The notes below the pieces were generated by a model that was given only the letters and a program-made list of their open reading frames with translations, had not been told where the DNA came from and ran no database searches. Source: a virus. From it: a DNA stretch of 64,000 nucleotides. A program made the position numbers and the translations under genes. Where the stretch lies: positions 150,511 through 214,510 of IMG/VR virus record IMGVR_UViG_3300029911_000002; one strand, written 5' to 3'. Positions within the stretch are counted from its first letter, which is position 1. The number at the start of each line of letters is the position of its first letter. Shown one piece after another: positions 257-62,034 of the stretch.

Positions 257-952
257 ATGATAGAAACATATAATGAATATGTAGAACTAATAAAAGAAGG
301 ACTAATTAGAACTCATAATATAATAACATATGAAGGTAGTTTAGAAAGAGAGTTATATTTAATTGGGATTAAATTTGAAATAAAAATTTACAATAAATTA
401 AAATTTGATCTATCATTATATAAAACTAATATTATTGATAATGATTATCTTGAATATATTGTTAATTATATTGAAAAACAATTAGGATATTATCCTTCAT
501 ATATAACAGTTGAAAATAATATTGGTAAAAATGGGTTTAAATTTGATAAAAAGTATTTATCAAATAAATATAAATCAATTAAGATAAATTTTGAAGCTAA
601 GTACGATGATGGATTTTATAAAAATATTATAAAAGTTCCTAAAATTGCATATCACTTATCACCAGTTGATAATGAAGATAAAATAAATAAAAATGGATTA
701 TGCGTAAAGGCATATAATAGAAAAGGTGAACATCCTGAAAGAATATATTTATTTGCTGATATTAATGAATATGATGATTTATTAAATTCGCTTAAAATTG
801 ATGATAAATTAAAAGGTATAAATAAAAATTATAATTTATATGAGGTTGAAATGAGTGATAAAAATATTATACATACTGATCCTAATTACAGTAACGGTTT
901 TTATACCTATGATAGTTTTAATCCAAAATTTTTAAAAATAATAAAAACATAA
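257..952 (+). CDS. ADP-ribosyltransferase-like protein with capsid-targeting-like leader (copy 1)
   Basis: 231 residues. The N-terminus MIETYNEYVELIKEG resembles the T4 capsid-targeting leader, with a possible I-x-E prohead-protease cleavage site (IKE). A region of about 100 residues of unknown fold follows. From about residue 128 comes a segment typical of ADP-ribosyltransferase or KptA-type folds: KVPKIAYHLSPVDNEDKI, GLCVKAYNRKGEHPERIYLF, then YNLYEVEM and a conserved end GFYTYDSF. I read the His of YHLS, the Tyr of RIYLF and the Glu of YEVEM as a PARP-like H-Y-E set, but this is inference. It is a tandem paralogue of the next gene and is distantly like the gene at 28143-28889. By analogy with T4 Alt, a head-packaged ADP-ribosyltransferase, it may be injected. 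No catalytic activity is proven. Confidence 0.6.
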   Translation: MIETYNEYVELIKEGLIRTHNIITYEGSLERELYLIGIKFEIKIYNKLKFDLSLYKTNIIDNDYLEYIVNYIEKQLGYYPSYITVENNIGKNGFKFDKKYLSNKYKSIKINFEAKYDDGFYKNIIKVPKIAYHLSPVDNEDKINKNGLCVKAYNRKGEHPERIYLFADINEYDDLLNSLKIDDKLKGINKNYNLYEVEMSDKNIIHTDPNYSNGFYTYDSFNPKFLKIIKT

Positions 953-962
953 TATTTAATTA

Positions 963-1664
963 ATGATAGATAATTATAAAGAATATGTAGAATTAATCAA
1001 AGAAGGATTAATCAGAACTCATAATATAATTAATTGTGAAAGTAGTTTAGAAAGAGAATTATATTTAATTGGATTTAAATTTAAAATAAAAATTTATAGT
1101 AAATTAAAATTTGATCTTACATTATTAAATACTAATAATTTTGATTTCGTTGATTTTGAATATATTATTGATTATATTGAAGATCAATTAGGTTATTTTT
1201 CATCATATATAACAGTTGAAAATAATATTGGTAAAAATGGGTTTAAATTTGATAAAAAGTATTTATCAAATAAATATAAATCAATTAAAATTATATTTGA
1301 AGCTAAATATGATGATGGTTTTTATAAAAATGATATAAAGGTTCCTAATGTTGCATATCATTTATCTCCAGTTAATAATGAAGATAAAATAAATAGAATT
1401 GGATTATTAGTAAAAACTCATAATAGAAAAGGTGAATATCCTGAAAGAATATATTTATTTAGAAATATTAATGATTGCGATAAATTATTAAAATCATTAA
1501 AATACGATGATAAGTTAAAAGATATAAATAGAAATTATAATTTATATGAGGTAGAAATGAGTGATAAAAATATTATTCATACTGATCCTAATTATAGTAA
1601 CGGTTTTTATACCTATGATAGTTTTAATCCAAAATTTTTAAAAATAATAAAACATAATATTTAA
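963..1664 (+). CDS. ADP-ribosyltransferase-like protein with capsid-targeting-like leader (copy 2)
   Basis: 233 residues, a clear tandem duplicate of the gene at 257-952. The leader MIDNYKEYVELIKEG, the middle block TVENNIGKNGFKFDKK and the C-terminal HTDPNYSNGFYTYDSF are nearly identical. The putative NAD-binding signature is kept: VPNVAYHLSP, GLLVKTHNRKGEYPERIYLF and NLYEVEM. The DNA is also very similar in the middle and 3' parts, so the duplication is fairly recent or kept uniform by recombination. Only 10 nt separate the two copies, suggesting one transcript that ends at the hairpin at 1667-1695. The likely role is the same as for copy 1: modification of a host target using NAD. Confidence 0.6.
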   Translation: MIDNYKEYVELIKEGLIRTHNIINCESSLERELYLIGFKFKIKIYSKLKFDLTLLNTNNFDFVDFEYIIDYIEDQLGYFSSYITVENNIGKNGFKFDKKYLSNKYKSIKIIFEAKYDDGFYKNDIKVPNVAYHLSPVNNEDKINRIGLLVKTHNRKGEYPERIYLFRNINDCDKLLKSLKYDDKLKDINRNYNLYEVEMSDKNIIHTDPNYSNGFYTYDSFNPKFLKIIKHNI

Positions 1665-1666
1665 AT

Positions 1667-1695
1667 AAAAAGTTCAGATTTTTCTGAACTTTTTT
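1667..1695. terminator. Bidirectional hairpin terminator
   Basis: An 11-bp perfect stem AAAAAGTTCAG/CTGAACTTTTT with a 6-nt loop, A-run on one side and T-run on the other, placed exactly between the convergent genes ending at 1664 (+) and 1694 (-). It can act in both directions. Confidence 0.8.
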
Positions 1696-2089
1696 ATAAA
1701 TTAAATTTTGCTGATGCTCTAATAGAACTCAAATCACCTAGTGCTTTTGGATCATATTTCATATTATTTATATATTCTAACGAATTTTTTGAAAATTCTG
1801 TTTTAAATTTAGCAATAAAAGGTTCAGGATTTTCCATATAATAAATATCATTTGATCCTTTATTTTCAAGTACTGCTTGATAATAATTATGAGTATCATT
1901 TTTATCATTTCCAATTCTAAATTTAATAATATATATAGGATAACCATATCTACTAACTGATATATCAAACCACTCATCATTTAATACATCATTTACATTT
2001 TCATTCCAGTATATAACAGTTGGATGACTTACATAACCTTCAGCTATATTAAAATTTTCATTTATAAAATCTAAATATTTGTTTAACAT
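1694..2089 (-). CDS. Small leader-bearing protein of unknown function
   Basis: 131 residues from the ATG at 2089. The longer frame up to 2137 adds a hydrophobic stretch with no support. I chose 2089 because the protein then begins MLNKYLDFINEN, matching the leader pattern (YLDFINE, an I-x-E site) seen throughout this window. It ends ASAKFNL, the shared C-terminal tail. The middle contains YPIYIIKFRIGND and NYYQAVLEN and shows no family I recognise. It is convergent with the ADP-ribosyltransferase pair and shares their terminator. A packaged small protein is plausible but inferred. Confidence 0.55.
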   Translation of the reverse strand: MLNKYLDFINENFNIAEGYVSHPTVIYWNENVNDVLNDEWFDISVSRYGYPIYIIKFRIGNDKNDTHNYYQAVLENKGSNDIYYMENPEPFIAKFKTEFSKNSLEYINNMKYDPKALGDLSSIRASAKFNL

Positions 2090-2142
2090 AAAAAATTGAT
2101 ATTCTTTTTTTAATATATATAAAAAAATGAAATTCAAATTTA

Positions 2143-4122: not shown

Positions 4123-4482
4123 ATGATAGATACAAGAAATGAAGATTTAGTAAAAAAATATTTTGATTTAGTTCAAGAAGAAATCAAAAGATTAATTTCT
4201 CAAGATAAAGAAATAAAGAAAAGTGATGTGCAAACATTTAATGATGAAATTTTCAATCAATCTGATGAAATTAAAAGTGAGATAAGTAATTACATCGATC
4301 AAGCAACAATGAATGATTTAGATATTAATAAAATTGCTAAAATTCTTTATGATAAATTTAAAGTTCAAACTAAAAATAATGTATTCAATCAAACGGATTC
4401 ACAGAATGTGCCTAATACTTTAATGGGCGAGAATAAACACATAAAAACATTTGAACAATTTAATTATGATAACAAATTTTAA
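4123..4482 (+). CDS. Hypothetical protein with the leader motif at its C-terminus
   Basis: 119 residues, acidic and helical (EEIKRLISQDKEIKKSD). Its last 18 residues include KHIKTFEQFNYDNKF. This contains the IKTFE core that other genes here carry at the N-terminus, so the tag lies at the opposite end of this protein. The 3' end overlaps the next gene by 17 nt. It is the first gene of an overlapping run to 6882 and has an AT-type promoter. Function is unknown; a chaperone, scaffold or packaged protein are all possible. Confidence 0.5.
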   Translation: MIDTRNEDLVKKYFDLVQEEIKRLISQDKEIKKSDVQTFNDEIFNQSDEIKSEISNYIDQATMNDLDINKIAKILYDKFKVQTKNNVFNQTDSQNVPNTLMGENKHIKTFEQFNYDNKF

Positions 4483-5164
4483 AAAATATACATTAAATGA
4501 AACATATGAATTATCTGGAAAGAATTCATTTTTAACTTATTTGCAGATAGTTTCAAATCATGATTATCATTTTATTTCGAATGATACATATAGAAAATTA
4601 TACAAATATCATGTATTTTTTTCAACTGAAACTATAACAGGAATAGAAGATTATGTAGATATTTTTAAATATAAACACTCATTAGCATCAGCATATGAAA
4701 TATTATTACAAATAAAAGATAATAAATTAGCATTCTTTTTTGGTATAAAAGAAAATTCTACATTAAGATATGGATTTTTAGATTTAGATACACAAAGGAG
4801 TTATGTTGTTGGAGAATTTATATTTACTAAAGAATTTTTTGGATCAATATCTAAATATAAATCTATGCAGTTTGTTAATAAAATAATACAGAATACTGAT
4901 GCTAAAAAATTACCAATACTATCAAAGATAAAACAAGATTGTGAACAATTTTACAAAGGTAAGAAGAAAACAAAAGTAGAAATATCAGACAATAAAGTGA
5001 TTATTTATATAACAAGAGATCAATTCACTGATGATGATATAAATATGAATCGTCCATTCAGATCATTAGATAATTGGGCTTCTAAAAAAATGTGGAGAAA
5101 CAAAGTTGAATGTAGCGTTGATGATGAAGGCGATCCAATAAAATTTATATTGATAGTGAAATGA
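4466..5164 (+). CDS. Hypothetical leader-bearing protein
   Basis: 232 residues from the ATG at 4466; an upstream TTG at 4451 in the same frame is less likely. It begins MITNFKKYTLNETYEL, with a possible L-x-E site (LNE). The body has mixed alpha/beta character (FFSTETITGIEDYVDIFKY; LAFFFGIKENSTLRYGFLDL) and the last third is rich in charged residues. It overlaps the preceding gene by 17 nt and the next by 4 nt (ATGA), so translation is probably coupled. No family is recognised. Confidence 0.45.
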   Translation: MITNFKKYTLNETYELSGKNSFLTYLQIVSNHDYHFISNDTYRKLYKYHVFFSTETITGIEDYVDIFKYKHSLASAYEILLQIKDNKLAFFFGIKENSTLRYGFLDLDTQRSYVVGEFIFTKEFFGSISKYKSMQFVNKIIQNTDAKKLPILSKIKQDCEQFYKGKKKTKVEISDNKVIIYITRDQFTDDDINMNRPFRSLDNWASKKMWRNKVECSVDDEGDPIKFILIVK

Positions 5165-5424
5165 AATACTTAAAAAGATTTGAAAATAAGGAAAAAGAAT
5201 ATAATATTGATGATTATATAATTGTTCATAATAATATATATGTAGGAACTAGTAAAATATTTAAAATTGTTGATATTGTAAAAAATGCATATTATCCATA
5301 TAACGTTATTGGAGTAAATGGAGATATTCATTTTTTAGAATATAAGGACATAAAAAGAAAATTATCTAAAAAAGAAATTGAAAAATATGAATTAGATAAT
5401 ATATCAAATAAATTTAACATATGA
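5161..5424 (+). CDS. Small leader-bearing protein, SH3-like
   Basis: 87 residues. It starts MKYLKRFENK (shared leader) and ends NKFNI (shared tail). The middle, DYIIVHNNIYVGTSKIFKIV then YNVIGVNGDIHFLEYKDIKRKL, looks like a short beta-barrel of the SH3 kind: a strand with D-Y-I-I-V, then K-I-x-x-I-V. The protein at 22183-22455 has the same plan (GEYILVNIYF; KILYDDNKTD; FYKIIRYLT), so the two are probable paralogues. Start and stop overlap both neighbours by ATGA. Confidence 0.5.
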   Translation: MKYLKRFENKEKEYNIDDYIIVHNNIYVGTSKIFKIVDIVKNAYYPYNVIGVNGDIHFLEYKDIKRKLSKKEIEKYELDNISNKFNI

Positions 5425-5759
5425 AATATTTAAAAAGATTTGAAAATATTAATAATAATCCTGAAATTGGGGATTATATTATTATAGATAAACTTAATAA
5501 TATACTAGGTCCAAGTTATGATGATATTTTTTATTTTTTGAATAATAATATTGGCAAAGTTGTTGGATTTGGAAATGTATATAACGGAAAAGGTATTAAA
5601 ATCAAATTTTTTAATATACCAAAGAATCTAAATACTCATTTTAATCCTGATCATATAAAGATTTTTCCAATGAATTCTATTTTAGCATTTGGTAAAAACA
5701 AAGAAACTGTGAAAGAAGAAGCTGAAATACAACGTAATATAAAGAAATTTAACTTATGA
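5421..5759 (+). CDS. Small leader-bearing protein, SH3-like
   Basis: 112 residues, starting MKYLKRFENINNN and ending NIKKFNL. The opening IGDYIIIDKLNN and later IGKVVGFGN resemble the beta-strand pattern of the preceding gene, so this is probably another member of that small-barrel family. The first 10 residues are identical to those of the preceding protein although the bodies differ, which points to a conserved leader rather than simple duplication. It overlaps its neighbours at ATGA junctions. Confidence 0.5.
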   Translation: MKYLKRFENINNNPEIGDYIIIDKLNNILGPSYDDIFYFLNNNIGKVVGFGNVYNGKGIKIKFFNIPKNLNTHFNPDHIKIFPMNSILAFGKNKETVKEEAEIQRNIKKFNL

Positions 5760-6103
5760 AATATATTAAAACATTTGAATCAATATCAAAAGGAATCAAT
5801 AATATAACTACTATTGATTGCTCTGGAGATAATTTAACTGAATTACCTGAATTACCAGATAGTTTAATTACTTTATATTGTAATAATAATTTTTTAACTA
5901 AAATTAAAAAATTACCTCCTAATTTGAAACATTTAAAATGTTCTCATAATCATAATTTATCTGAGTTACCTATATTACCAGAAACTATGACTGAATTACG
6001 TTGCTATAACACTAAATTACCTTATAATAATCTAATTGAATATAAAAAATGGTTAGATAAAGAGCATCCTGAAATATCAAAATCTAAACAATTTAATTTA
6101 TGA
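5756..6103 (+). CDS. Leader-bearing leucine-rich-repeat protein
   Basis: 115 residues. It begins MKYIKTFES and ends SKQFNL. Residues about 15-90 are LPX-type leucine-rich repeats: LTELPELPDSLITLYCNNN, LTKIKKLPPNLKHLKCSHN and LSELPILPETMTELRCYN. This is the repeat type of bacterial effectors such as YopM, IpaH and SspH, where it forms a binding surface for host proteins. Here there is no catalytic domain; three to four repeats is short. Together with the head-targeting-like leader it suggests a small protein-binding effector, but the partner is unknown. Confidence 0.6.
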   Translation: MKYIKTFESISKGINNITTIDCSGDNLTELPELPDSLITLYCNNNFLTKIKKLPPNLKHLKCSHNHNLSELPILPETMTELRCYNTKLPYNNLIEYKKWLDKEHPEISKSKQFNL

Positions 6104-6882
6104 AATACTTAAAATATTTTGAAACAAAATTAGAAGTTGAATATCATTGTCTTGAATGTGGATGGATAGGCTGGTTACCTATGACCAAAATAGTTAAATG
6201 TCCAAATTGTGGAAATATTAATGATATATGGAAAGAAGGCGAATCAATACCTGAAAGACATAAAAAAATGAATTATTTATCTGAAAATATTAATATTATT
6301 AAACAACAACCTTTTTATTTAAGTGGAGATATATTATACATATCAGATGATATGGCAAAATTAATGACTCCAACATATGCAAAATTAAATAAACTTTATA
6401 AAAATAAAGGAGTTCGTGATTATATCAATCAAGAACAAATTGATTTTTATAATAATGAAAAAGATGATAAAGGTTATTATAAATCTAGAAATATTAATAC
6501 TAATATAACTGTAAGATATGAAAGGATGTATGCTATGACAATACTTATAAAAAGACTTGGTGGAGTTCTTGAAAATAAATATGGAGAATTTCAATATTTT
6601 ATAGGAGGAACATCAGGAGATCACGATATGCATGGTAAAAACATGGTGAGAGATACAAAAGAATGTAATTATAATCTAATGATAAAATATTATCCTATTA
6701 TTGAACATATAAAAAATTTTTACAAAAGATTAAAATCTAAAGACGAAGGATTTTTTGATATAATTAAAGATTCATTAGATAAAGATATAATGTTAGCTCA
6801 ATACGGGGTACCAAAAGAACTAAAAAAATATTTCAAAAATGCTGAAGATGTGGCAATAAATGTTAATAAATTTAATATATAA
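6100..6882 (+). CDS. Leader-bearing zinc-ribbon protein
   Basis: 260 residues, beginning MKYLKYFET and ending VNKFNI. Residues about 16-40 hold a zinc ribbon: two CxxC pairs in YHCLECGWIGW and VKCPNCGNI. The rest includes a Gly-rich stretch FIGGTSGDHDMHGKNM and a helical C-terminus (SLDKDIMLAQYGVPKELKKYF). The latter part could be enzymatic, but I recognise no family. It is the last gene of the overlapping run; 93 nt of non-coding sequence follow before the structural genes. Confidence 0.5.
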   Translation: MKYLKYFETKLEVEYHCLECGWIGWLPMTKIVKCPNCGNINDIWKEGESIPERHKKMNYLSENINIIKQQPFYLSGDILYISDDMAKLMTPTYAKLNKLYKNKGVRDYINQEQIDFYNNEKDDKGYYKSRNINTNITVRYERMYAMTILIKRLGGVLENKYGEFQYFIGGTSGDHDMHGKNMVRDTKECNYNLMIKYYPIIEHIKNFYKRLKSKDEGFFDIIKDSLDKDIMLAQYGVPKELKKYFKNAEDVAINVNKFNI

Positions 6883-13100: not shown

Positions 13101-13616
13101 GATACAAATCAAAAAACTAAATATAATGTTTCTGAACCGTTAGCTAGATCTATGTCATTAAATATACAACAAAATATAATGAATACTTCAAACGGCGTAT
13201 CATCAGATAATTCTATTTATAGATATAACGGCTCTTATGAACCAATATTTAATACAATACCAGTATTTAATAATACATTTTTATATGAATCAGGAAATAC
13301 TATAAGTCAATTTGAATCAAACTATAAATTCGATACTTCATTTGAAAACTTCGGTATGATTGAAGAATTAATTTATTCAAAAATTAATCCTGTAATATCT
13401 CCATTAAAATTAAGTAATACTAATACTGATGTATCTGTGTATCCAATAGTTGACGAATTTGGATATCAGTTTTCTTCAAGATTTATATTTAGCTCATCTT
13501 GGGATAACGATTTTTATGTAATAACAAATAATACTCAAAATATGAATAATAATGTCTTTTCAAATTTTTCTAACTATGAATATATAATTGATCCAATAAA
13601 AAATATAAATGATTAA
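10182..13616 (+). CDS. Large virion protein, 1144 aa
   Basis: A very long Tyr/Asn/Phe-rich, mostly beta protein starting MINNSFQLLRTNPALTTNVK. Blocks such as YEYFAPLFIRKNNIPDGFVIL, GFYADKLELITNL and YPVYRIKFNDIKDFDFN recur in style but are not exact repeats. No enzymatic motif is visible. The length, position next to another giant structural gene and composition fit a baseplate or tail-surface protein. Its stop overlaps the next start (TAATG). No family is named with confidence. Confidence 0.55.
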   Translation: MINNSFQLLRTNPALTTNVKLVVSSDYKFYLESFDTNSQLSNQKYKHFSISKNNLYENQIVKFYDGLSSQLAFDVKYDSDDSTVFSKYEQQFDDIYWSGAKSVEDTWYNETYEYFAPLFIRKNNIPDGFVILRVDDSAPYDIQDDDLGAGKITKDNFNSQIVNNWKCVSFVDMRYNTDLGLFLNTNITNNTSYPERSFDLDFRSYEYSKFYGIDYNNGGYVNISNFLQSTLQYEQPHFKLESDIIESFKTNNLIYPHILNFKFLFNDVPADPVNIHNYSLNRYYGFYADKLELITNLTSYITPELISGFTLKNNIFGYMSGSTFIPTNESPFVEGFFLDKTYWIQLTSSETDNEFYQVVLVYNNGVNTYRVISDFDMSGSTFNVSNDRTCFINYTDGYIYNCQTINNPSGITNYISGYTSNFNIDPYYSGNTIKSMYGDLYLILIDGIYHVLKCKNDSYFIQSDYAINSYTTGLEYWKGGKNSNYYTTKQIYTYGNKPLIYPVYRIKFNDIKDFDFNRVNTHFADFDYEKDIYTATDEQKLYAIDYTDTSVLSQNYMTYPRGEDGQYQIMNVSSEYIADDELYEISFNDLTEIWRKNPSVVKWGFAGSNSNCDYPYKLNNSISIGDVFNATADVFSLLPTEVEKNLDYCYRIGNFFSGNTNNIIKYLNQTTNIEVDFMENYSKKFNLDLYLNSNVDYFDYFFKNKTYFTIDDINYTKQTLKYSTFQAGDIYTASSTLFKGLNINALNVTSVSRDINGSITSIVADNSKNFNDYKFAIILNDVYQYYTGNTYDSTYEGGLSGNTIIDISSNAIHAFLNEEFKNILVVVNVKIPIQKNYISLNNVAFFGEKFGLYNSKTLDGNSLVYPANVKEFDPSLIVASNIFNAFYDMNSLSEFDSGITYYYINSIGQSGYTAPMNTTGGTMALIPDWVKNDTPFILNLNDPAVLTTKQNSYIKTAIKGPLTNIYDKYQVYYDTNQKTKYNVSEPLARSMSLNIQQNIMNTSNGVSSDNSIYRYNGSYEPIFNTIPVFNNTFLYESGNTISQFESNYKFDTSFENFGMIEELIYSKINPVISPLKLSNTNTDVSVYPIVDEFGYQFSSRFIFSSSWDNDFYVITNNTQNMNNNVFSNFSNYEYIIDPIKNIND

Positions 13617-13933
13617 TGAAATATATTAAAACTTTTGAAAATGAATTATATAATGAACCAACATATTGGTTATTGCCGACTGATGATAGATTTGAAAAAT
13701 CTTTAAAACAAATAAAATGTCCTAATAATAATATTAAATTTTTTTTAAATAATAATAGAATTAAAAATATTAAATATGTATTCATTTGTTATTCACCATA
13801 TAATAAACAATGGGAATGGAATTCATATAAAGGTAAATTACTTGACGATTATCTTGAAGAAAATAATTATAAATTTGGTGGACATATAAATATGAATGAA
13901 TTAGAATTAATTGCTGATAAATTTAACATATAA
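13616..13933 (+). CDS. Small leader-bearing protein, paralogue 1
   Basis: 105 residues. It starts MKYIKTFENELYNEP and ends IADKFNI. It shares YWLLPTDDRFEKSLKQIKCP, YVFICYSP and a W-x-W segment with the next gene, so the two are tandem paralogues. The core YWLLPTDDRFxxSLKQIKCP is a conserved opening of an unrecognised small domain. It overlaps the end of the large virion gene by TAATG, so it may be expressed with the late structural genes. Confidence 0.5.
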   Translation: MKYIKTFENELYNEPTYWLLPTDDRFEKSLKQIKCPNNNIKFFLNNNRIKNIKYVFICYSPYNKQWEWNSYKGKLLDDYLEENNYKFGGHINMNELELIADKFNI

Positions 13934-13937: not shown

Positions 13938-14330
13938 ATGAAATATATAAAAATGTTTGAAGAAAATATATATGAAAATATATATGAAAATATATATGAA
14001 AATATATATGAAAATATATATGATAGTAGATGCTATTGGTTATTACCAACTGATGATAGATTTGAAGATTCTTTAAAACAAATAAAATGTCCTGATTTTA
14101 AAATAGAACAATTTTTAGGTAATAAAAATATGAGACAATATAATTATGTATTTGTTGGATATAATCCAACTAAAACTGTAGATGACGATGTTAGTCTTTG
14201 TTGGGGCTGGAACTATAAAGTTAATTGGAATAAAAATACTGAAGATTTTTATGAAAAAAAAGGATATAAATTTATGGGAAATATAAATATACCTGATTTC
14301 GAATTTGATGTAAATAAATTTAATATATAA
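13938..14330 (+). CDS. Small leader-bearing protein, paralogue 2, with ENIY repeats
   Basis: 130 residues from the ATG at 13938, which gives MKYIKMFEE; a longer frame from 13911 is less likely. Directly after the leader are five perfect copies of Glu-Asn-Ile-Tyr, encoded by a 12-nt tandem repeat. Then comes the shared domain YWLLPTDDRFEDSLKQIKCP, YVFVGYNP, CWGWNY, and the end FDVNKFNI. Compared with paralogue 1, the repeat lengthens the linker between leader and domain. That is consistent with the leader being a separable tag. Confidence 0.5.
   Translation: MKYIKMFEENIYENIYENIYENIYENIYDSRCYWLLPTDDRFEDSLKQIKCPDFKIEQFLGNKNMRQYNYVFVGYNPTKTVDDDVSLCWGWNYKVNWNKNTEDFYEKKGYKFMGNINIPDFEFDVNKFNI
13962..14021 (+). 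repeat. 12-nt tandem repeat x5 inside a coding region
   Basis: Five exact copies of GAAAATATATAT, in frame, encoding (ENIY)5. The length (multiple of 3) keeps the frame, so copy-number change by slippage would only alter linker length. Confidence 0.95.
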
Positions 14331-20003: not shown

Positions 20004-20714
20004 TTATATATTGAAATTATTTGACTTTAATATGTAGTCATATTCTATTCTTATATTATCATCTAATATTTCATCAGGAATATTATTAATTAGAAATGAA
20101 TTATTCTTTAAATATTGTTTTTGAAAATTATATGTCATAAAAATATTTATAATATTTTTTGCTGAAATTTTATTTGAAACATCTATATCTTTTGATGGAG
20201 TCCACTTTTTAGTATTTAAATCTAATTTATATCCATTATAATAAAATATCATTTTATCTAAAAATAATATATTACTTAATGATGGTAATTTATTTTTAAA
20301 ATTATCATTTATAAATTTAATTGTATATTTTGCATAATCTGTATCCCAATTTAACCAAAAATTAGTAGATAAAGAATATATAGAATTTATTATTAATAAA
20401 TCTTCATATGATAAATTAGATTTAATTATTTGTTTTTTATTTGTCATTATTTGATTAGATTTTGTGATATCACTTGTGATACTATTAACATAATCAATTA
20501 TATTACCTAAAAGTTTCATTGGATTATTAATTATTGTGTTACTTTCAAGATAATCTATAATCTCACTATATGCTTCATGCCAATAAAATGAATATAATTC
20601 ATTATTATGAAGTATATTTAATGTTCCACGTCTAGGGGAGAAATCAAACCCAAAGGATTTGTTTTTACCTATATCAGATATATTGAATTCATTTAATTTT
20701 TTGATGTATTTCAT
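20004..20714 (-). CDS. Leader-bearing hypothetical protein, 236 aa
   Basis: It begins MKYIKKLNEFNISDIG and ends LKSNNFNI, so it has both the leader-like start and the shared tail. Residues 20-45 (SFGFDFSPRRGTLNILHNNE) are Gly/Arg-rich. The rest is helical, with IINSIYSLSTNFWLNWDTDYAKY in the middle. It follows the gene at 20718-21539 after only 3 nt, in one transcription unit. I do not recognise a family. Confidence 0.45.
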   Translation of the reverse strand: MKYIKKLNEFNISDIGKNKSFGFDFSPRRGTLNILHNNELYSFYWHEAYSEIIDYLESNTIINNPMKLLGNIIDYVNSITSDITKSNQIMTNKKQIIKSNLSYEDLLIINSIYSLSTNFWLNWDTDYAKYTIKFINDNFKNKLPSLSNILFLDKMIFYYNGYKLDLNTKKWTPSKDIDVSNKISAKNIINIFMTYNFQKQYLKNNSFLINNIPDEILDDNIRIEYDYILKSNNFNI

Positions 20715-20717: not shown

Positions 20718-21539
20718 TTACATATTAAAATTTGCTGCATCTTTTTCTAAATTAAAAACATTAGATATTTTACAATAATATATAACTGTAAATTTAATAC
20801 CTACTATTTCTTTATGATCTTTAACTTTTGCTGTCATATATATAGTATCACCTTTTTCTACTATTCTACCAATATTATAAGTCATATATCTATTACCTTC
20901 TTCATCTATTAATTTACAAGTATATTGAGTGCCAAATTCAGTGTTTTGGATTTTAAAATTATAAACATCAGCTTTTATTGTAATTTTACTTCCAATCTCA
21001 CCAACATATTTACTTATACTTTCTTCTTGATTTTTTTTGGTTAATGTTTCAAAGAATAGATTTTTATATTTTTCAATTTCATTCGCCATATCTTCATTTC
21101 CTTGAAATCCTTTAGATAACCAAACAACATATTGAGGATCATCTACGAATACTTCACCTATTGTTTCTCCACGATGTTTTCCAAATTTTAATATTTTATT
21201 TTTTTCTGCTTGAAATAATCCAGCATATGTACCAAATCTATCTATAATAACTGGAATTTGACCAGAAGCTTTAGCAGCTTTTTTAACTGCTGTCGTAAAG
21301 TCAGTACTTAAATTACAAATATAATAGCATGATGCACTTCTTGGATTCCATCTCCAAAAAGTATAATAAACGGAGTATTTTCCAGATACATCTATATAAA
21401 AGCAGCCTACATCTCTAATTGTCAATTTTTTATCTTTTCCTTCTTCTAATATTTTTTCAGCTTCTAAAACATCTTCATCACTTGGTTGTATGAGTTGATT
21501 CATTTTAGCTTCTTTGATATATTGCAAGTATGTTTTCAT
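20718..21539 (-). CDS. Protein with T4-like capsid-targeting leader and exonuclease-X C-terminal-like segment
   Basis: 273 residues. Its first residues, MKTYLQYIKEA, are the closest match here to the T4 internal-protein leader MKTYQEFIAEA, including the I-x-E site. Residues about 120-150, KILKFGKHRGETIGEVFVDD then PQYVVWLSKGF, match the short module at the end of exodeoxyribonuclease X and related proteins (F-G-K-x-x-G-x-T-I-x-E-x-x-x-D-P-x-Y-x-x-W). The C-terminal part (ITIKADVYNFKIQNTEFGTQ; GDTIYMTAKVKDHK) looks like an OB-fold. No exonuclease catalytic domain is visible. It ends AANFNM. A head-packaged, DNA-associated protein is a fair inference. Confidence 0.55.
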   Translation of the reverse strand: MKTYLQYIKEAKMNQLIQPSDEDVLEAEKILEEGKDKKLTIRDVGCFYIDVSGKYSVYYTFWRWNPRSASCYYICNLSTDFTTAVKKAAKASGQIPVIIDRFGTYAGLFQAEKNKILKFGKHRGETIGEVFVDDPQYVVWLSKGFQGNEDMANEIEKYKNLFFETLTKKNQEESISKYVGEIGSKITIKADVYNFKIQNTEFGTQYTCKLIDEEGNRYMTYNIGRIVEKGDTIYMTAKVKDHKEIVGIKFTVIYYCKISNVFNLEKDAANFNM

Positions 21540-22182: not shown

Positions 22183-22455
22183 TTATAAATTAAATTTAAT
22201 TGCATTTATATTAGATTCAAATTCATCTATTTCATCTGTAGTTAAATATCTAATTATTTTATAAAAAAGAACAGTATCAGTTTTATTATCATCATATAAT
22301 ATTTTATATGATGTTGTAGAGTCAAAGTTATTTTTTATTATTTTTGATTTTTTATCAACTCTATGATGTGGATCAAAATAAATATTAACTAAAATATATT
22401 CACCTTCTTTATAATTTTTATTTTCAATCATTTCAAATTTCTTAATATATTTCAT
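22183..22455 (-). CDS. Small leader-bearing protein, SH3-like
   Basis: 90 residues, starting MKYIKKFEMIENK and ending NAIKFNL. The middle (GEYILVNIYFDPHHR; SYKILYDDNKTDTVLFYKII) resembles the gene at 5161-5424, so it is a probable paralogue on the other strand about 17 kb away. The ATGA overlap with the upstream gene repeats the junction pattern of the 5-6 kb cluster. Confidence 0.5.
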   Translation of the reverse strand: MKYIKKFEMIENKNYKEGEYILVNIYFDPHHRVDKKSKIIKNNFDSTTSYKILYDDNKTDTVLFYKIIRYLTTDEIDEFESNINAIKFNL

Positions 22456-22835
22456 AAATTAAATTTGTTTATATCTGTTTCAAGTTTATTAAGTTTATTA
22501 TAAATATTTTTTATAACAGTTAAATTAGATTTATTATCATTTTTATATATATCTAATGAAAATCTAATATTATTTGATGATTCACTATAATTAAAACTTA
22601 CTTCATATTTATCACCGTTATATTCAAATTTATAATCTGGATAATTTCTGGTAAAATGAATTTCATTATTCGTCCTTTGTTTAGAATTTGATGCGCTATG
22701 CCAAAAATAACATTTCTTATATTTTTCAGCGCAATCTATTGTATATTTAAGTTTTTTTGTCAATTCTGGATCATATAAAAAATCATCTTCTATCTTCTTT
22801 TTAGATTCATTTATAAATTCAATAAAATTTTTCAT
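22452..22835 (-). CDS. Small leader-bearing protein, 127 aa
   Basis: It starts MKNFIEFINESKKK, close to the T4 leader pattern with an I-N-E site, and ends DINKFNL. The middle has aromatic and polar strands (KKCYFWHSASNSKQRTNNE; YKFEYNGDKYEVSFNYSES) suggesting a small beta-rich domain. It overlaps the upstream acetyltransferase-like gene and the downstream gene by ATGA. Family not recognised. Confidence 0.5.
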   Translation of the reverse strand: MKNFIEFINESKKKIEDDFLYDPELTKKLKYTIDCAEKYKKCYFWHSASNSKQRTNNEIHFTRNYPDYKFEYNGDKYEVSFNYSESSNNIRFSLDIYKNDNKSNLTVIKNIYNKLNKLETDINKFNL

Positions 22836-25462: not shown

Positions 25463-25550
25463 AATTATATATATTAAATAAAAAATACCGTTTTTTGCTA
25501 AAATAATATAATTTATATAACGTTATATAATTATAATTAATAGTCTTTTA

Positions 25551-25598
25551 TTATTTTTGTATTACATTTTCAGTTATAAATTCAATATATTTTTTCAT
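25551..25598 (-). pseudogene. Leader fragment of the interrupted GNAT gene
   Basis: ATG at 25598 encodes MKKYIEFITENVIQK and stop. MKKYIEFITE matches the leader family and the T4 MKTYQEFIAE pattern. A 15-residue protein is unlikely to be a full gene. It points the same way as the GNAT fragment on the far side of the IS607 element, so I read it as the original 5' end of that gene. Confidence 0.6.
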
Positions 25599-53576: not shown

Positions 53577-54521
53577 TTATTCTAATAATCTATTTTTATA
53601 ACTCTCATCAATTTCAAAATTATCACACCATTTTTTATTATCTTTAACATCGGATATAACTTCTTTGATAATCAAATTTATTTTTTTTATGTGTTTTTTA
53701 TTTTTATTCTTAAATAAATTTTTCCAATTGTTTAAATATGCTTCAACATTATCTATATCAACAATTTTTATAAATTTATAACCATTAAGTTTGTTTACAC
53801 CACTATTTATTAATTCCTGATTCAATCTATTAATTTCCGATATTAATGTATTTTCTCCAATATTCATTTTTAATTTTATCAAAAATAGTTCTGCATTAAA
53901 TTCATCTAAATAACTGTAACATTTATAAGTTTCACTATTTAAAAATTTATTCATTAAAAAATCACTATCTTTTGAATTAAAATCTATTAAAAATTGATAA
54001 AGTTGTGCAATCCTTGCGTTATATTCAGTATCTAAAGATAAATAAATCAGAGTTTTAAAACTATTCCACTCATTATCAAAATTAATATAGTTTATAGATT
54101 TACGAACTGAAATATAGTTCGGATCAACGTTAATATTTAAATTTAATTTTACATCATTTTGTTTTATTCTAAAATATTCTAAAATGTGAGTCAATTCGTG
54201 AGTTATTATTTCCTTTATTTTTACGTCGTTGAATTTATTTTGATCTATTTCAATTCTAATTATAACATTATATAATATATCATCTTTAAATATAATATGA
54301 GATGAATCAAATAATCCATAATTTCTATTAGATAATTTATAATCAATTAACATATTTTTTAAAATAAAATCATTCTGAGCATCTAAATCTAATATTATTT
54401 CATCTGAAATATTATCTTCTATATTTTTTTTAATTTCTATAAATATTATATCTGTATATTGTTTTATAATATTTGATATTCCTCTATTTTCTAATATATA
54501 TTCATCGTAATTATTTATCAT
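53577..54521 (-). CDS. Leader-bearing HExxH metallopeptidase-like protein (paralogue B)
   Basis: 314 residues. The leader is MINNYDEYILENRGISNIIK, with an I-L-E site and the same G-I-S-N-I-I-K step as paralogue D at 61177. The zinc motif is HELTH in KEIITHELTHILEYFRIKQ, about residues 105-123. The second conserved block is TLIYLSLDTEYNARIAQLYQ. The C-terminal part holds FNAELFLIKLKMNIGENTLI, matching DSFNAEKFYNYMLEK in paralogue D. Gluzincin-like fold inferred. Leader plus protease domain suggests an injected protease. Confidence 0.7.
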   Translation of the reverse strand: MINNYDEYILENRGISNIIKQYTDIIFIEIKKNIEDNISDEIILDLDAQNDFILKNMLIDYKLSNRNYGLFDSSHIIFKDDILYNVIIRIEIDQNKFNDVKIKEIITHELTHILEYFRIKQNDVKLNLNINVDPNYISVRKSINYINFDNEWNSFKTLIYLSLDTEYNARIAQLYQFLIDFNSKDSDFLMNKFLNSETYKCYSYLDEFNAELFLIKLKMNIGENTLISEINRLNQELINSGVNKLNGYKFIKIVDIDNVEAYLNNWKNLFKNKNKKHIKKINLIIKEVISDVKDNKKWCDNFEIDESYKNRLLE

Positions 54522-56617: not shown

Positions 56618-58098
56618 TTGTAGATACTGAATATAAAAATAATAACCTAATTATCTCATATATAGATAGTTCTGGTCAGATCAAACTAAAATATAAAAAT
56701 TGGAGTCGCCCAACAAAATTTATAAAAACTACTGATGATGATAAAGAAAAAAGTGGTAGATTTGTCACATGGTCAGGAGAAAATGTTAAAGAGATTTATA
56801 CAAAATACCCAAATCGGTATTCCATTTATGATTTCATAGATAGTTTTGATAAAGAAGAACGAGATGAAATATATTCATATGCAGAACCAGATATATTCTT
56901 CGTTGATATTGAGAACGAGATTCTTAATACTGGTAAACCACAACCACAACTTGCTGAGGGTGAGATACAAACAATATCAATAGTAAATAAAGATAAAGTG
57001 TTGGTAATTGGAACTCAGTTTTTAGATGCTGCACAAATTGAATCAATTGGTAATGATATCAATACTCATTTTCAAAAATTTGGAACAAATTATAAATTTA
57101 AATATGTTCAGTACAAAACTGAATATGATATGCTTCATAGTTTTTTTAACAAATTAGTTCCTAAAATGCCAGTAATAACTGGTTGGAATTTCATTAATTA
57201 TGACTGGACATATTTAGTTGCAAGAGCAAGAAGAATTGGACTTGAACCTGAGGTTGCCTCATTCACAAAAAAACTTAATAAACCATTTAATCCTCCTAAT
57301 GCTATTAATCCAAGTTACGCAGAAATGCCAGCGCATAGGGTTATAGTTGATTATATGGAATTATTTAAAAAATGGGATCAATCAGTTAAAGTAAAGGAAA
57401 GTTTATCTTTAGATTTCGCTTCTGAAAAATTACTAGGAAAAGAAATTAAGAAAATTAATTACGATGGAGATTTAAAAAAATTGCATAAAGAGGACTATAA
57501 GAAATTTGTATTCTATAATGCTGTAGATAGTTGCTTAGTTCAACAGATACATAAAAAAATGAAATATGTAGACATACTTTATGGCATGGCTGTATTGGGT
57601 AAAATTAAGATTAAAGATGCAATTTCAACTCTTGCATTAACAGAAGGAATTTTAAGAGAAAAATTAAGAGATCAAAAAAATATTGTTCTTGTTAGAAATG
57701 AAGATAGTGAATACGGAGATACTGAAACTGAATCTATAAAAGGAGGATGGGTTAAAGAACCTGTAAGAGGTATGGCAGAATGGACATGCTGTTTTGACTT
57801 TAGTTCCTTGTATCCTACTACTATGAGAGAATTTAACATATCTGCAGATTCATATAAAGGTCAAAAAGTAAAAGGTAAAGATTATTCCATATTTAATGGA
57901 CATCAATTAACAATTGAGCCTGATGATATCATAACTTTAAATGGATCAGTATTTAAGAATGAGGAAGGAGTTGTTAGTAGTGTAATGAGAGAAGTATATT
58001 CTGATAGAAAAAAGTGGAAAAACGTGATGATGGAAAAACATGAAGAACTTGATAAATTACAAAATGAGCTTAAAAAATTAGAGGGAACTCCTTTATGA
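56614..58098 (+). CDS. 43: Family B DNA polymerase, N-terminal half (gp43-type; split gene)
   Basis: 494 residues. Exonuclease motifs: FFVDIENEI (Exo I), VITGWNFINYDWTYLVARAR (Exo II) and, further on, FYNAVDSCLVQQIHKKM (Exo III, Y-N-A-x-D). Polymerase motif A is CCFDFSSLYPTTMREFNISA, starting near residue 393. The chain then ends ELKKLEGTPL with a stop. T4 gp43 is about 900 residues. Motif B (K-x-x-x-N-S-x-Y-G) and motif C (Y-G-D-T-D-S) are missing and are not found elsewhere in the window. A homing endonuclease gene starts 62 nt later. I infer a split polymerase whose C-terminal half lies outside this window. If there is none, the gene would be broken. Confidence 0.9.
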   Translation: MIVDTEYKNNNLIISYIDSSGQIKLKYKNWSRPTKFIKTTDDDKEKSGRFVTWSGENVKEIYTKYPNRYSIYDFIDSFDKEERDEIYSYAEPDIFFVDIENEILNTGKPQPQLAEGEIQTISIVNKDKVLVIGTQFLDAAQIESIGNDINTHFQKFGTNYKFKYVQYKTEYDMLHSFFNKLVPKMPVITGWNFINYDWTYLVARARRIGLEPEVASFTKKLNKPFNPPNAINPSYAEMPAHRVIVDYMELFKKWDQSVKVKESLSLDFASEKLLGKEIKKINYDGDLKKLHKEDYKKFVFYNAVDSCLVQQIHKKMKYVDILYGMAVLGKIKIKDAISTLALTEGILREKLRDQKNIVLVRNEDSEYGDTETESIKGGWVKEPVRGMAEWTCCFDFSSLYPTTMREFNISADSYKGQKVKGKDYSIFNGHQLTIEPDDIITLNGSVFKNEEGVVSSVMREVYSDRKKWKNVMMEKHEELDKLQNELKKLEGTPL

Positions 58099-58136
58099 AA
58101 TAATAAATAAAAATATAATTTTTTTATATTTTTATT

Positions 58137-58147
58137 TTTATATATAA
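58137..58147 (+). promoter_or_regulatory. AT-type promoter motif before the endonuclease
   Basis: Exact TTTATATATAA, 13 nt before the ATG at 58161. The endonuclease therefore has its own promoter rather than being read with the polymerase. Confidence 0.45.
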
Positions 58148-58160
58148 AATAAAAAATGTT

Positions 58161-59762
58161 ATGATTTTGACAAAGTATGTCGATGTAAAAATATCTAATA
58201 ATCAAATTAAATATTATAAAGAAAAAGGGTATGAAGTAAAAGGAGGAAATGAAATTATTTCTATACTTGCAATAGATTTACCTACAAGAAGTGTATCAAA
58301 AATTAAAGCAAAATGTGATGTTTGTGGCGAAGAAACTATTATTTCATATAGTAGATATAATTATAACACAAAAAATTCAACAACATATTATGCTTGTAGT
58401 AGAAAATGTTCTGAACAAAAATCAAAAAATACAAATTTAGAAAAATATGGAGTAGAAAATGTTTCAAATTCTCAAATTATTAAAGATAAAAAAGTAGAAA
58501 CTTGTTTAAAAAATTTTGGTGTCGAATATCCTCAGCAATCTAAAGAAATTAACAAAAAAGGACATGTAAGTAAATTAGAAAAATATGGAGATGCTAACTA
58601 TACAAATCCATATAAAATGAAATCAACGAATTTAGAAAGATATGGAGTAGAATATGCTAGTCAAAATGCAGAAATATCTATTAAAATGAGAGAAAATCAA
58701 TTTATTAGTTTTAAGAAAAATTTTGATAAAGGATTATATAAATCTGAAATTATTAGAGATAGAAAAGATATATTTGTTGGATATTTATCAAATGGTCAAT
58801 ATGAATTTAAATGTGATTTACATAAAGATCATCATTTTAATATTGATTATAAATTATTGTGGAATAGGATAAATAATAAAACAATATTATGTACAGAATG
58901 CAATCCAATTTCAAAAAATGTTAGTGGGTTAGAGTTACAATTATTAGGTTTTATTAAAGAAAATTATAATGATGAGATAATTTTGAATGATAGAAAAATT
59001 TTAAATCCTTTAGAATTAGATATTTATTTACCTAATTTGAAATTAGCATTTGAATTTAATGGTTTATGGTGGCACAATGAATTAAATAAAGATAAAGATT
59101 ATCATTTAAATAAAACTGAAGAATGTGAAAAACAAGGCATTCAATTGATTCATATTTATGAAGATGACTGGATTTATAATAATGAAATTATAAAATCTAT
59201 AATATTAAGTAAATTAAATATTTTTGAAAACGTAATTGATTCAAAAGATTGTGAAATAAGAGAAGTTTTAGATATAAATTTAATTAAAAGTTATTTAGAA
59301 AAAAATGATATACATGGATATATTAAATCTAATATAAAAATTGGTTTATATTTAGGTAATGAATTAATTAGTTTAATGACATTTAATATTAAGAATAATA
59401 ATTATGAGATGATAAGTTTTAGTAATAAAATAAATACTAATATTATTGATAGTGAAATTACGTTATTAAATTATTTTATAAATAAATATAGTGCGAAAGA
59501 AATAGTATGTTATTTTGATAGAAGTTTTAGTCAAATTAATTTATATAAAAAAATAGGATTTGATTTTGTCGATAAAGTTAAGCCAGATTATCAATATATT
59601 ATTGATAATATTAGGCATAATAAATGTAATTTTCGTAAAAATAAATTAGTAACAGAAGGATTTGATATAAATAAAACAGAGCATGAAATTATGTTAGAAC
59701 GGAAGGTATATCGCATATATGATTCTGGATTTTTAAAATTTATATATACTTTAAAAAAATAA
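58161..59762 (+). CDS. Homing endonuclease with Vsr-like (EDxHD-type) nuclease domain
   Basis: 533 residues. The N-terminal zinc finger (KCDVCGEETIISYSRYNYN ... CSRKCSE) is like that of the endonuclease at 17701. Three or four short DNA-binding repeats follow (NLEKYGVENVSNSQIIKDKK; CLKNFGVEYPQQSKEI; NLERYGVEYASQNAEI). The nuclease core is at about residues 255-345: LELQLLGFIKENYNDEIILN, NPLELDIYLPNLKLAFEFNG, LWWHNELNKDKDYHLNKTEE and IQLIHIYEDDWIYN. It resembles I-Bth0305I and other Vsr-like phage homing enzymes. It sits in a split polymerase gene, the usual place for such an element. Confidence 0.85.
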   Translation: MILTKYVDVKISNNQIKYYKEKGYEVKGGNEIISILAIDLPTRSVSKIKAKCDVCGEETIISYSRYNYNTKNSTTYYACSRKCSEQKSKNTNLEKYGVENVSNSQIIKDKKVETCLKNFGVEYPQQSKEINKKGHVSKLEKYGDANYTNPYKMKSTNLERYGVEYASQNAEISIKMRENQFISFKKNFDKGLYKSEIIRDRKDIFVGYLSNGQYEFKCDLHKDHHFNIDYKLLWNRINNKTILCTECNPISKNVSGLELQLLGFIKENYNDEIILNDRKILNPLELDIYLPNLKLAFEFNGLWWHNELNKDKDYHLNKTEECEKQGIQLIHIYEDDWIYNNEIIKSIILSKLNIFENVIDSKDCEIREVLDINLIKSYLEKNDIHGYIKSNIKIGLYLGNELISLMTFNIKNNNYEMISFSNKINTNIIDSEITLLNYFINKYSAKEIVCYFDRSFSQINLYKKIGFDFVDKVKPDYQYIIDNIRHNKCNFRKNKLVTEGFDINKTEHEIMLERKVYRIYDSGFLKFIYTLKK

Positions 59763-59763: not shown

Positions 59764-60090
59764 ATGAAGCATTTAAAATTATTTGAAAATAATACTGGAA
59801 CAATAATTTATCTTTGTACTATATCAGATTGTGGTATAAATGATATGTATTCATTTGATGATAAATTAAGCAGAAATAATTTTACTATAAATCATATTTG
59901 CAATGAATATAAAGACAATGATATAGATTATGAAATTGAAGATATTTTTGATATTGATACATTAATTGAGAATTTTAATGTATGTGATTTAGATAAAAAA
60001 ATTTATTTAGATACTGCTAAGGTTTTAAATGATGTAAAATTAGATCCAGAAATACAAATAAAATATGATATTAAAAAATTTAATTTATAA
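59764..60090 (+). CDS. Small leader-bearing protein, 108 aa
   Basis: It begins MKHLKLFENNTG, where L-F-E fits the L-x-E cleavage rule, and ends YDIKKFNL. The middle is acidic (YDIEDIFDIDTLIENFNV-like) with a short cysteine-containing strand near the start (IIYLCTISDCG). It follows the endonuclease gene after 1 nt. No family recognised. Confidence 0.5.
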   Translation: MKHLKLFENNTGTIIYLCTISDCGINDMYSFDDKLSRNNFTINHICNEYKDNDIDYEIEDIFDIDTLIENFNVCDLDKKIYLDTAKVLNDVKLDPEIQIKYDIKKFNL

Positions 60091-60111
60091 ACTTTTTAAT
60101 ATTTAATTACT

Positions 60112-60199
60112 ATATTATTAAAATGCAGTGGTAGCATATGTTAATGCGTTTAGCTTCCAGTTAAAGGATTCTGTTCAAATCAGACCACTTGCTCAAATT
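60112..60199. repeat. 88-bp direct repeat, left copy (tRNA-like)
   Basis: Identical over 88 bp to 62025-62112. The two copies bracket the metallopeptidase genes C and D and each contains the tRNA-like sequence. Confidence 0.95.
60125..60193 (+). tRNA. tRNA-Gly(UCC)-like, copy 1
   Basis: 69 nt. The acceptor pairs as GCA/TGC plus GTGG/CCAC with one bulged T near the 3' strand. Then U8-A9, a perfect 4-bp D-stem GCAT/ATGC with a 6-nt loop lacking GG, and a 5-bp anticodon stem TTTAG/TTAAA with loop CTTCCAG (anticodon TCC at 60156-60158). A TCTG/CAGA T-stem with canonical loop TTCAAAT and a T discriminator (as in tRNA-Gly) follow. CCA is not encoded. Anticodon UCC reads GGA, a very common Gly codon in these genes. 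The bulge and short D-loop make it atypical, so it may be decayed. Confidence 0.5.
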
Positions 60200-60205
60200 T
60201 ATATT

Positions 60206-61180
60206 ATGGATTATTTAAACAATTACAACACATATTTATTAGAAAGAAAATCGATATCTGATTCTTGTGAAATTTTACAGGAGACTATATCAAAAGATTT
60301 GCATAATATATTAATTAATTTTAATAATATTAATTTAAGTAATGAGTTTACTTATGAATTATCTGAAAATGACTTAAAATTAGATAATATTAAAGTAATA
60401 TTTAATTTATATAAATATAAAGAAAATGTTTGCAACTCTGTTGCTAGATTTAATAACTCTAAAATGAGTAATGATATTTTATCTAATATTGAAATAGTTT
60501 TAGATATTTATATTTCTGATAAAGATGAGATATATTTTAATGATTATATAGATTCTGTCATTTTACATGAATGTTTACACATTTTTCAATATTACAATAT
60601 TTCTAAAAATAATAAATTTAGGTCATCTTCTTGGTCTATCGGAGTTATTTTGAGTCAATTTAGAAACAATTTTAAATCAGATTATATTAATAATATAATT
60701 GAATTATTATATAAAACTTTAAGTCATGAAATCGATGCTCAAATACATCAATATTATTATTTTAGTAAGATTGGTAAAAAATACAATAAAATATTTGATA
60801 ATATTAAAGATATTGAAAAATTTAATATAAAAAAGCTTAGTAATATAGAAGAAATTGAATTAAATTTATTAAAAGATAAAATATATCAGAGTATTTATTA
60901 TTATTCAAAAAATAAGAAATATATTAAGAAATTAAATAAATCTATATGGAAAGAAACTAATAATGATAAATTTTTAATTGATCTTAAAGAATTATTTGAT
61001 ATTAGGTTAAAATATATAAAAAGTAAAATATCAAGTGTTGATAATAGGATTAATGAGGGTAATTTAGAGTTCTCATCGATACCATCTGCAATATTTCATA
61101 AAGATTTTAATAGAATGTATTTATATGATCCTATATTTTTTAAAAATTTATTAAATGAAAATTTTAATATACCAATATGA
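60206..61180 (+). CDS. Leader-bearing HExxH metallopeptidase-like protein (paralogue C)
   Basis: 324 residues from the ATG at 60206 (MDYLNNYNTYLLERKSISDS). A longer frame from a GTG at 60128 would start inside the tRNA-like repeat and is rejected. The start N-Y-N-T-Y-L-L-E-R parallels N-Y-D-E-Y-I-L-E-N of paralogue B. The zinc motif is HECLH in SVILHECLHIFQYYNISKNN. The second block is YKTLSHEIDAQIHQYYYFSK. A later block (NRINEGNLEFSSIPSAIFHK) is specific to this copy. The ATGA overlap with paralogue D suggests joint expression. Confidence 0.65.
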   Translation: MDYLNNYNTYLLERKSISDSCEILQETISKDLHNILINFNNINLSNEFTYELSENDLKLDNIKVIFNLYKYKENVCNSVARFNNSKMSNDILSNIEIVLDIYISDKDEIYFNDYIDSVILHECLHIFQYYNISKNNKFRSSSWSIGVILSQFRNNFKSDYINNIIELLYKTLSHEIDAQIHQYYYFSKIGKKYNKIFDNIKDIEKFNIKKLSNIEEIELNLLKDKIYQSIYYYSKNKKYIKKLNKSIWKETNNDKFLIDLKELFDIRLKYIKSKISSVDNRINEGNLEFSSIPSAIFHKDFNRMYLYDPIFFKNLLNENFNIPI

Positions 61181-62034
61181 AAAAGTATTTAAATTTTATC
61201 AATGAAGGTAATGGTATTTCTAACATTATTAAAACATATTCTGATATTATTTATACTAATTTTTTAGACTATGAAGATAAGATTATTTTTTTAGATTTAA
61301 AAGATATTTTATTTCCTTTATATAATATTAAATTGACTATTAATTTTGAAAAAAGATTAGATTGTTATGCTAAATTTGATCCTATAAATTATACTTTTTC
61401 AAATAATATATTAAAAAATATAAATTTATACTTTTTTGTTCCTATTGGAACTGATGATTACATCATAAAAAGTAAAATATCTCATGAATTGACTCATGTT
61501 TTAGAATTTTATAATTTGGTTAAGAATCAAAGAGATTTACCTACTCATGTTAATTTACAAAAAATTATAACAAATTTTAACAAAATCGAGACACCTTTAA
61601 ATGATTTTACATATTTTATTTATTTATCTTTGGATAATGAATTAAACGCTAGAGTTTCAGAAGCGTATCATTTTTTAATGAAATTTAATAGCATAGATAA
61701 AAATATTTTATTAGAAAAAATTAAAGAATGTGAATCATGGAAAAAATATGAAGAATTGGATAGTTTTAATGCTGAAAAATTTTATAATTATATGTTAGAA
61801 AAAATATCAGAGCCAGCGTTAATAGTTTTAATTAATCATTTAAATGAACAAATTATTAAAAATAATTACAATTTAGATTTTATAGATTCAAATTTACCAT
61901 TAATAGATTATTTTAAAAAATGGGAAAATATATTTAAAAATAAATGTATTAAAAATAAAAAAAAGTTATTATCTATAATTAATGAAGTTATTAAGGATCA
62001 AGGAAATATGAATGAAAAATATAGATATTATTAA
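61177..62034 (+). CDS. Leader-bearing HExxH metallopeptidase-like protein (paralogue D)
   Basis: 285 residues. The leader MKKYLNFINEGNGISNIIKT has an I-N-E site. The zinc motif is HELTH in KSKISHELTHVLEFYNLVKN (about residues 106-112). The second block is YLSLDNELNARVSEAYHFLM, giving a possible Glu third ligand. It is closest to paralogue B, including GISNIIK at the start and ELDSFNAEKFYNYML near the C-terminus. The gene's end overlaps the right-hand 88-bp repeat. A zinc protease delivered into the host is the simplest reading; no substrate can be named. Confidence 0.7.
   Translation: MKKYLNFINEGNGISNIIKTYSDIIYTNFLDYEDKIIFLDLKDILFPLYNIKLTINFEKRLDCYAKFDPINYTFSNNILKNINLYFFVPIGTDDYIIKSKISHELTHVLEFYNLVKNQRDLPTHVNLQKIITNFNKIETPLNDFTYFIYLSLDNELNARVSEAYHFLMKFNSIDKNILLEKIKECESWKKYEELDSFNAEKFYNYMLEKISEPALIVLINHLNEQIIKNNYNLDFIDSNLPLIDYFKKWENIFKNKCIKNKKKLLSIINEVIKDQGNMNEKYRYY

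Follow-up and report, generated by a model that had tools for sequence, protein, structure and literature searches.

Scaffold-like N-terminal leaders and a C-terminal tag mark probable head cargo proteins of a T4-related huge phage

Phage T4 loads four known cargo proteins into its head by means of a capsid targeting sequence (CTS); the internal proteins IPI–III and Alt carry the leader MKTYQEFIAE, which is cut by the protease gp21. Here we analyse a window of 64,000 nucleotides, bases 150,511–214,510 of the virus record IMGVR_UViG_3300029911_000002 (214,510 bases in total), in which short N-terminal leaders resembling this sequence recur on many proteins, most of which also end in a common C-terminal tag (C-tag). 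Within the T4 CTS, residues 4 and 7 govern targeting and residues 8 and 10 processing; Asp at position 10 stops processing but not targeting, and Alt has propeptides at both ends (PMC9026906). The inner-body proteins of the giant phages phiKZ and SPN3US have propeptides that are mostly long (>100 residues), and in phage 201phi2-1 a TFE site is cut (PMC5694885). The polyvalent proteins of phages, described by Iyer, Aravind and colleagues, are thought to be injected (PMC7824862).

The window comes from a fragment of a T4-related huge phage, and its conserved proteins have their nearest counterparts in the huge metagenomic phages LR756501 (735 kb), LR745206 and LR756500; Sphingomonas phage PAU, Tenacibaculum phages, Chryseobacterium phage MA9V-2 and the Prevotella Lak phages are more distant relatives. 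As with the T4 internal proteins and Alt, a signal of about ten residues is found on unrelated proteins, positions 4, 7, 8 and 10 are conserved in one class of leaders (class A), the lineage has an S77 protease and a Gp23-type major capsid protein (MCP), and an ADP-ribosyltransferase (ART)-like protein is among the carriers. Unlike T4, this one 214-kb fragment holds about 75 candidates rather than four, most of them with a second, apparently unreported tag, KFN[IL], that has no cleavage site before it; the larger class of leaders (class B) lacks the usual processing residue, and the protease is fused to a scaffold of tandem CTS-like repeats. The number of candidate head cargo proteins in a giant phage recalls the inner-body and ejection proteins of phiKZ and SPN3US, which have protease-cut leaders, but the leaders here span only 8–15 residues, no C-terminal tag has been reported in those phages and they belong to a different lineage. 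ART and GNAT domains are shared with the polyvalent proteins; the latter are large and multidomain, whereas here single small domains each bear a tag.

Class A leaders were defined by the pattern [YF]xx[FYL][ILM]xE, sought in residues 2–18, and class B leaders by MK[YH][IL]Kx[FY]E. Of 301 open reading frames (ORFs) in the record, 11 have the class A pattern, the window accounting for 8; control positions gave 1–4 and shuffled sequences 1.5 on average. The count in the genome and its relatives, which the sequence-only reading that preceded this work had proposed, also puts class A above controls in LR756501 (32 of 518 ORFs against 0–1) and in LR745206 (16 against 2 at one control position). The [YF]xx[FYL] part places aromatic residues, enriched over controls, at CTS positions 4 and 7, and the [LI]-x-E processing site is present, the pattern also accepting Met at P3. 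Class B leaders number 47 in 396 ORFs of the record, and none was found in LR756501 or PAU. Among 233 proteins with class B leaders from all loci fetched, P3 is Lys in 72, Thr in 65, Leu in 16 and Ile in 9, and the [LI]-x-E site is mostly lacking. With Lys or Thr mostly at P3 in the tagged lineage, class B appears to be a CTS from which the processing residue has for the most part been lost. Intermediate leaders are found in this record (MKHLKTFKIYE, MKHIKEYTIFE) and in LR745206, where MKYLKxYKIFES is a cleavable leader of intermediate appearance. About 20 PAU leaders read MKT[LI]xxLYE, many of them lying around the genes for its protease and MCP, and MA9V-2 has MKTFTYFINEA immediately upstream of its protease. 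Across large divergence, orthologues retain a leader of either kind; in LR756501 this holds for the counterparts of the proteins at 257, 4466 and 5756 (Table 1) and of a PPK2-HAD protein (MISNYDNFMNES), from which the C-tag is missing.

Every leader listed in the sequence-only reading is where it had been placed, although MKKYIEFITEN (from 25598 on the minus strand) proved to be a 15-codon orphan. The estimate of about 20 carriers agrees with the roughly 21 that we count in the window; the whole set, across the record, is larger. Its treatment of the leaders as a single T4-like set stands for class A. Class B is a separate class, and because its TFE, KFE and RFE leaders are without the [LI] processing residue, the proposed removal by gp21 does not extend to this larger group.

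Over 61 body groups the consensus of the C-tag is L-x3-[AST]-[ND]-K-[FY]-N-[LI]. When proteins were chosen by their class B leader alone, across all loci fetched, 207 of 233 ended in [FY]N[ILMV]. Starting from the other end of the protein, 66 of the 396 ORFs of the record finish in F-N-[LIMV]; one of these seems to be a protein of another family with such an end by chance, and the rest, with a single exception, show a recognisable leader, either at the ORF's own start or at one shortly downstream. About 65 double-tagged proteins are counted in the 214-kb record, many of them encoded in head-to-tail arrays. Ends of this type are found in 3 of 704 ORFs in LR756501 and 1 of 303 in PAU. The C-tag is also borne by three class A proteins of the window (at 1694, 20718 and 22452), and at least 112 stretches of IMG/VR contigs, which reach 330 kb, contain a junction of a tag with the next leader. 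The double tag is real and, as far as the open-access literature searched shows, unreported; neither a C-terminal cargo tag nor leader arrays of this kind were found described there. The sequence-only reading, whose interpretation is partly supported, had overlooked this main feature.

Pooled with their relatives, the double-tagged proteins number 229 and fall into the 61 body groups, of which the largest are a GDY/SH3-like family (79), ankyrin repeats (28), the WLLPTDDRF family (21) and leucine-rich repeats (LRR, 16), with many small ones besides. Within the two largest families, which have unrelated folds, the leader and tag are 74–82% identical in pairwise comparison against 24–29% for the bodies. 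In AlphaFold models of the two folds the first ten residues lie outside the fold (mean pLDDT confidence score 44 and 56, with bodies >90), and the confidence drops at the C-terminus too. The carriers had been described as unrelated, but not all of them are: there are several sets of paralogues, 257/963, 5161/5421, 13616/13938 and the HExxH proteins 53577/60206/61177, to which a leaderless member at 52604 can be added.

An S77 prohead protease fused to a scaffold of about 10–14 YSEYIAENLDx-type repeats is encoded by LR756501 (73,913–76,336), LR745206 and the tagged lineage; the LR756500 form is degenerate. The repeat unit is 14 residues, xIxYSEYIAENLDx, in tandem (the fusion is also seen at loci L282, L287, L289 and L299), and the pattern Y-x-x-[FY]-[IL]-x-E is common to this repeat and the class A leaders. 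The head modules of the lineage, which were found via the MCP of relatives, encode a Gp23-type MCP as well as the S77 protease. Towards the N-terminus of the MCPs of the clade, a candidate cut site lies near residue 44, where MNE, INE or LYE precedes an Asn. An MCP/protease head module and a tag–leader junction occur together on contig 3300020048_000452, and double-tagged genes with KYNL ends lie within head modules beside the portal and protease (L282, L287 and L289). Pfam searches of the record and the tagged contigs for S77 and Gp23 gave nothing above the cut-off, as was also the case for control genomes, and PHROGs scans gave no matches for most structural genes.

We consider it probable that the proteins with leader or tag are phage head cargo, loaded into the prohead by leaders that mimic the scaffold, and likely that the leaders are head-targeting signals. 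From the sequences we infer packaging, cleavage, injection, the swapping of bodies and a role for the C-tag, as follows. The N-terminal leader would be a short amphipathic helix copying the 14-residue scaffold repeat, and would draw its protein into the scaffold core of the prohead as with the T4 internal proteins and Alt. Class A leaders would probably be cut after the Glu during maturation, as the scaffold would be at its many [IL]-A-E sites. Class B (MKYIKTFE) would be a form derived in the tagged lineage which, because the P3 Ile or Leu is lost in most, probably targets without being cut, although class B leaders may still be cut, as TFE is in 201phi2-1 (PMC5694885). A second signal, a free C-terminal helix [AST]-[ND]-K-[FY]-N-[IL]-COOH, would have been added to nearly all class B and some class A proteins; we favour a second packaging or retention contact as its role. 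Genes of this double-tag format sit in overlapping arrays and could swap their middle parts, and the cargo would enter the host along with the DNA. More tentatively, and with the balance slightly against it, the two-signal format may load an expandable, recombining array of dozens of proteins and the scaffold repeat may be the CTS receptor or model in general. The likeness of leader and scaffold repeat offers a testable answer to how a CTS is recognised, and the signals described here make it possible to pick out, from sequence, candidate injected proteins in uncultured huge phages.

Several observations weigh against head cargo. The processing motif fails in most class B leaders (the TFE, KFE and RFE forms), and [LIM]xE is not enriched before the C-tag (29%, against 25–37% in control windows). 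The leader is found on enzymes with conceivable cytoplasmic roles (PPK2-HAD, nucleotidyltransferases) and, as a loose match only, on a putative histidine kinase of LR756501. A gp21-type protease, for which the sequence-only reading had suggested a search, is present in the lineage as S77 on the sister contig 3300020048_000452, but the record itself, a fragment, has no S77 or MCP match above the Pfam cut-off and sister contigs supply both. On the side of head cargo, a promoter-like motif, TATATA[TA]A, is common to array-first tagged genes and structural genes; it precedes 8 of the 13 tagged genes that stand first in an array and, among the other first genes of the window, 16 of 30, against 1 of 24 in the 0–33 kb region (p = 2.5e-4 for the comparison with tagged genes). 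This motif is AT-rich and was chosen after inspecting the sequences, so we take it as no more than suggestive of late expression. A C-terminal propeptide like that of T4 Alt was rejected, as no site is enriched before the C-tag.

Alternatively, class A alone might be head cargo and class B a separate cytoplasmic family whose likeness to the CTS is historical, its leader and C-tag addressing another phage or host structure such as a replication site, a membrane, a chaperone or a protease. P3 in class B is mostly neither Leu nor Ile, relatives with class A leaders have no C-tag, and head genes are missing from the tagged record and most tagged contigs. We nevertheless regard this division as unlikely, given that the same C-tag occurs on both classes, intermediate leaders join them, dual-tagged genes lie inside head modules by the portal and protease, and a T4 CTS with Asp10 still targets without processing (PMC9026906). 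The conserved ends might instead be features of a DNA or RNA cassette (start, overlap, coupling or recombination homology), the peptide ends being by-products. Of 65 tags, 36 overlap the next gene head to tail through ATGA, conservation of the junction extends to its DNA, Ile is always ATA in this record and, a point that weighs against the head cargo reading too, AAC encodes the Asn of the tag about half of the time compared with a background of 8%. On the other hand, position −3 is commonly only Phe (182) or Tyr (27), with the Phe synonym TTC (25 of 181) near background; leader codons vary synonymously; the tag is kept where genes do not overlap, 13 such cases having no same-strand gene start near; and the ends are low-confidence add-ons in the models of the two folds. 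The −3 residues, the synonymous leader codons and the tags kept without overlap point to selection on the ends at the peptide level, whereas the enrichment of AAC implies a constraint on the nucleotides of the overlap as well, which may serve the translation start of the next gene. A purely DNA-level origin was thus rejected as sole cause on the codon and overlap evidence, and we give it little credence. Finally, one N-terminal signal on many proteins of a giant phage could be an address for a phage nucleus or another intracellular compartment. The proteins most in need of import, the DNA polymerase (window 56614), a UvsW-like helicase (16138), gp32 and a DNA helicase, carry no leader, a finding that also supports the sequence-only reading, and the lineage is T4-type; nuclear import was rejected on the replication proteins checked, and such an address is highly improbable.

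Table 1 Leader-bearing and tagged proteins and related features of the window
Position	Strand	Protein and signals	Remarks
257..952	+	ADP-ribosyltransferase-like; class A leader MIETYNEYVELIKEG (I-K-E); no C-tag	LR756501 orthologue 161902-163488, leader MSIISKYSDFLNET
963..1664	+	Paralogue of 257 protein (81% identity); class A leader MIDNYKEYVELIKEG	
1694..2089	-	Class A leader MLNKYLDFINEN; C-tag AKFNL	Joins both signals
4466..5164	+	Leader MITNFKKYTLNE (L-N-E); no C-tag	LR756501 orthologue starts MRSYYEYIKENE
5161..5424	+	Dual-tagged GDY/SH3-like; MKYLKRFEN ... NKFNI	First in 4-gene array, ATGA overlaps
5421..5759	+	Dual-tagged GDY/SH3-like; MKYLKRFEN ... KKFNL	
5756..6103	+	Dual-tagged LRR; MKYIKTFES ... 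KQFNL	PF12799 E 1.3e-6; LR756501 LRR-matching protein has MIKKFGLFES
6100..6882	+	Dual-tagged zinc-ribbon-like; MKYLKYFET ... NKFNI	
13616..13933	+	Dual-tagged, WLLPTDDRF family; MKYIKTFEN ... DKFNI	
13938..14330	+	Dual-tagged paralogue of 13616 protein; MKYIKMFEE ... NKFNI	
20004..20714	-	Dual-tagged; MKYIKKLNEFN ... NNFNI	
20718..21539	-	Class A leader MKTYLQYIKEA; C-tag ANFNM; ExoX-like C-terminal domain	PF20600 E 6e-8
22183..22455	-	Dual-tagged; MKYIKKFEM ... IKFNL	
22452..22835	-	Class A leader MKNFIEFINES; C-tag NKFNL	
25554..25598	-	Orphan class A leader MKKYIEFITENVIQK; two stops after 15 codons	
28143..28889	-	ART/KptA-like paralogue; diverged N-terminus MLDRFKNFEKY; no C-tag	PF01885 weak, E 0.0096
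53577..54521	-	HExxH protein; class A leader MINNYDEYILEN; no C-tag	
59764..60090	+	Dual-tagged; MKHLKLFEN (L-F-E fits cleavage motif) ... KKFNL	
60206..61180	+	HExxH protein; class A leader MDYLNNYNTYLLE	Start downstream of listed GTG
61177..62034	+	HExxH protein; class A leader MKKYLNFINEG; no C-tag	

The domains of the carriers (Table 1) had been taken as those expected of effectors. This identity is firm only for the ankyrin, LRR and GNAT folds; the ART and HExxH assignments are weak by profile. Searches of PDB sequences with ART-like and HExxH alignments gave chance matches only, and the only relatives of the ART pair found in IMG/VR were near-identical copies. Foldseek related the GDY family to SH3/Tudor/chromo-like barrels, none with an E value below 0.001. 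An IS607-like recombinase and TnpB (23226–25462) lie between the orphan leader MKKYIEFITEN and a leaderless GNAT ORF (22832–23281), as if a transposon had split a leader-bearing gene at 22832–25598.

A different motif, [LI]DPYGEE[EDNIV]W, was seen in about 40 of 704 unrelated LR756501 proteins (~480 kb read), often at the very C-terminus; a DNA-pattern scan placed 49 of 52 sites in the frame of a called ORF, with free synonymous variation. It is enriched on the leader proteins of LR756501 (12 of 39 against 33 of 665, p about 1e-6) and was found neither in this record nor in LR745206, of which 400 kb was read. At 7,700–9,700 and 128,349–132,250 of the record, small proteins that share a GDK(L/V)(L/V)C motif and have ends resembling KLxKL are encoded in tandem arrays; they make up a further repeated family, which has no leader.

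TAnnTTTG motifs of the Bacteroidota type upstream of some genes suggest a Bacteroidota host. The record also encodes a type I CRISPR-Cas system (118,641–128,283), of which Cas3 and Cas7 best match I-F variant models. Cas6 is present, Cas1 and Cas2 were not noticed, and the array has 33–37 repeats of 36 nt with spacers of 29–30 nt, which gave no match among the loci compared. At 56614–59762 of the window a family B DNA polymerase ORF of 494 residues precedes an endonuclease-like ORF; with 504 residues, the LR756501 counterpart is short as well, which suggests that the polymerase gene is split. Finally, the record at 49.1–53.1 kb has few ORFs and many copies of AAAATATTTGGTAAAACAAAAAACTTTTTGTAA together with other repeats, possibly small RNA genes or regulatory sites.

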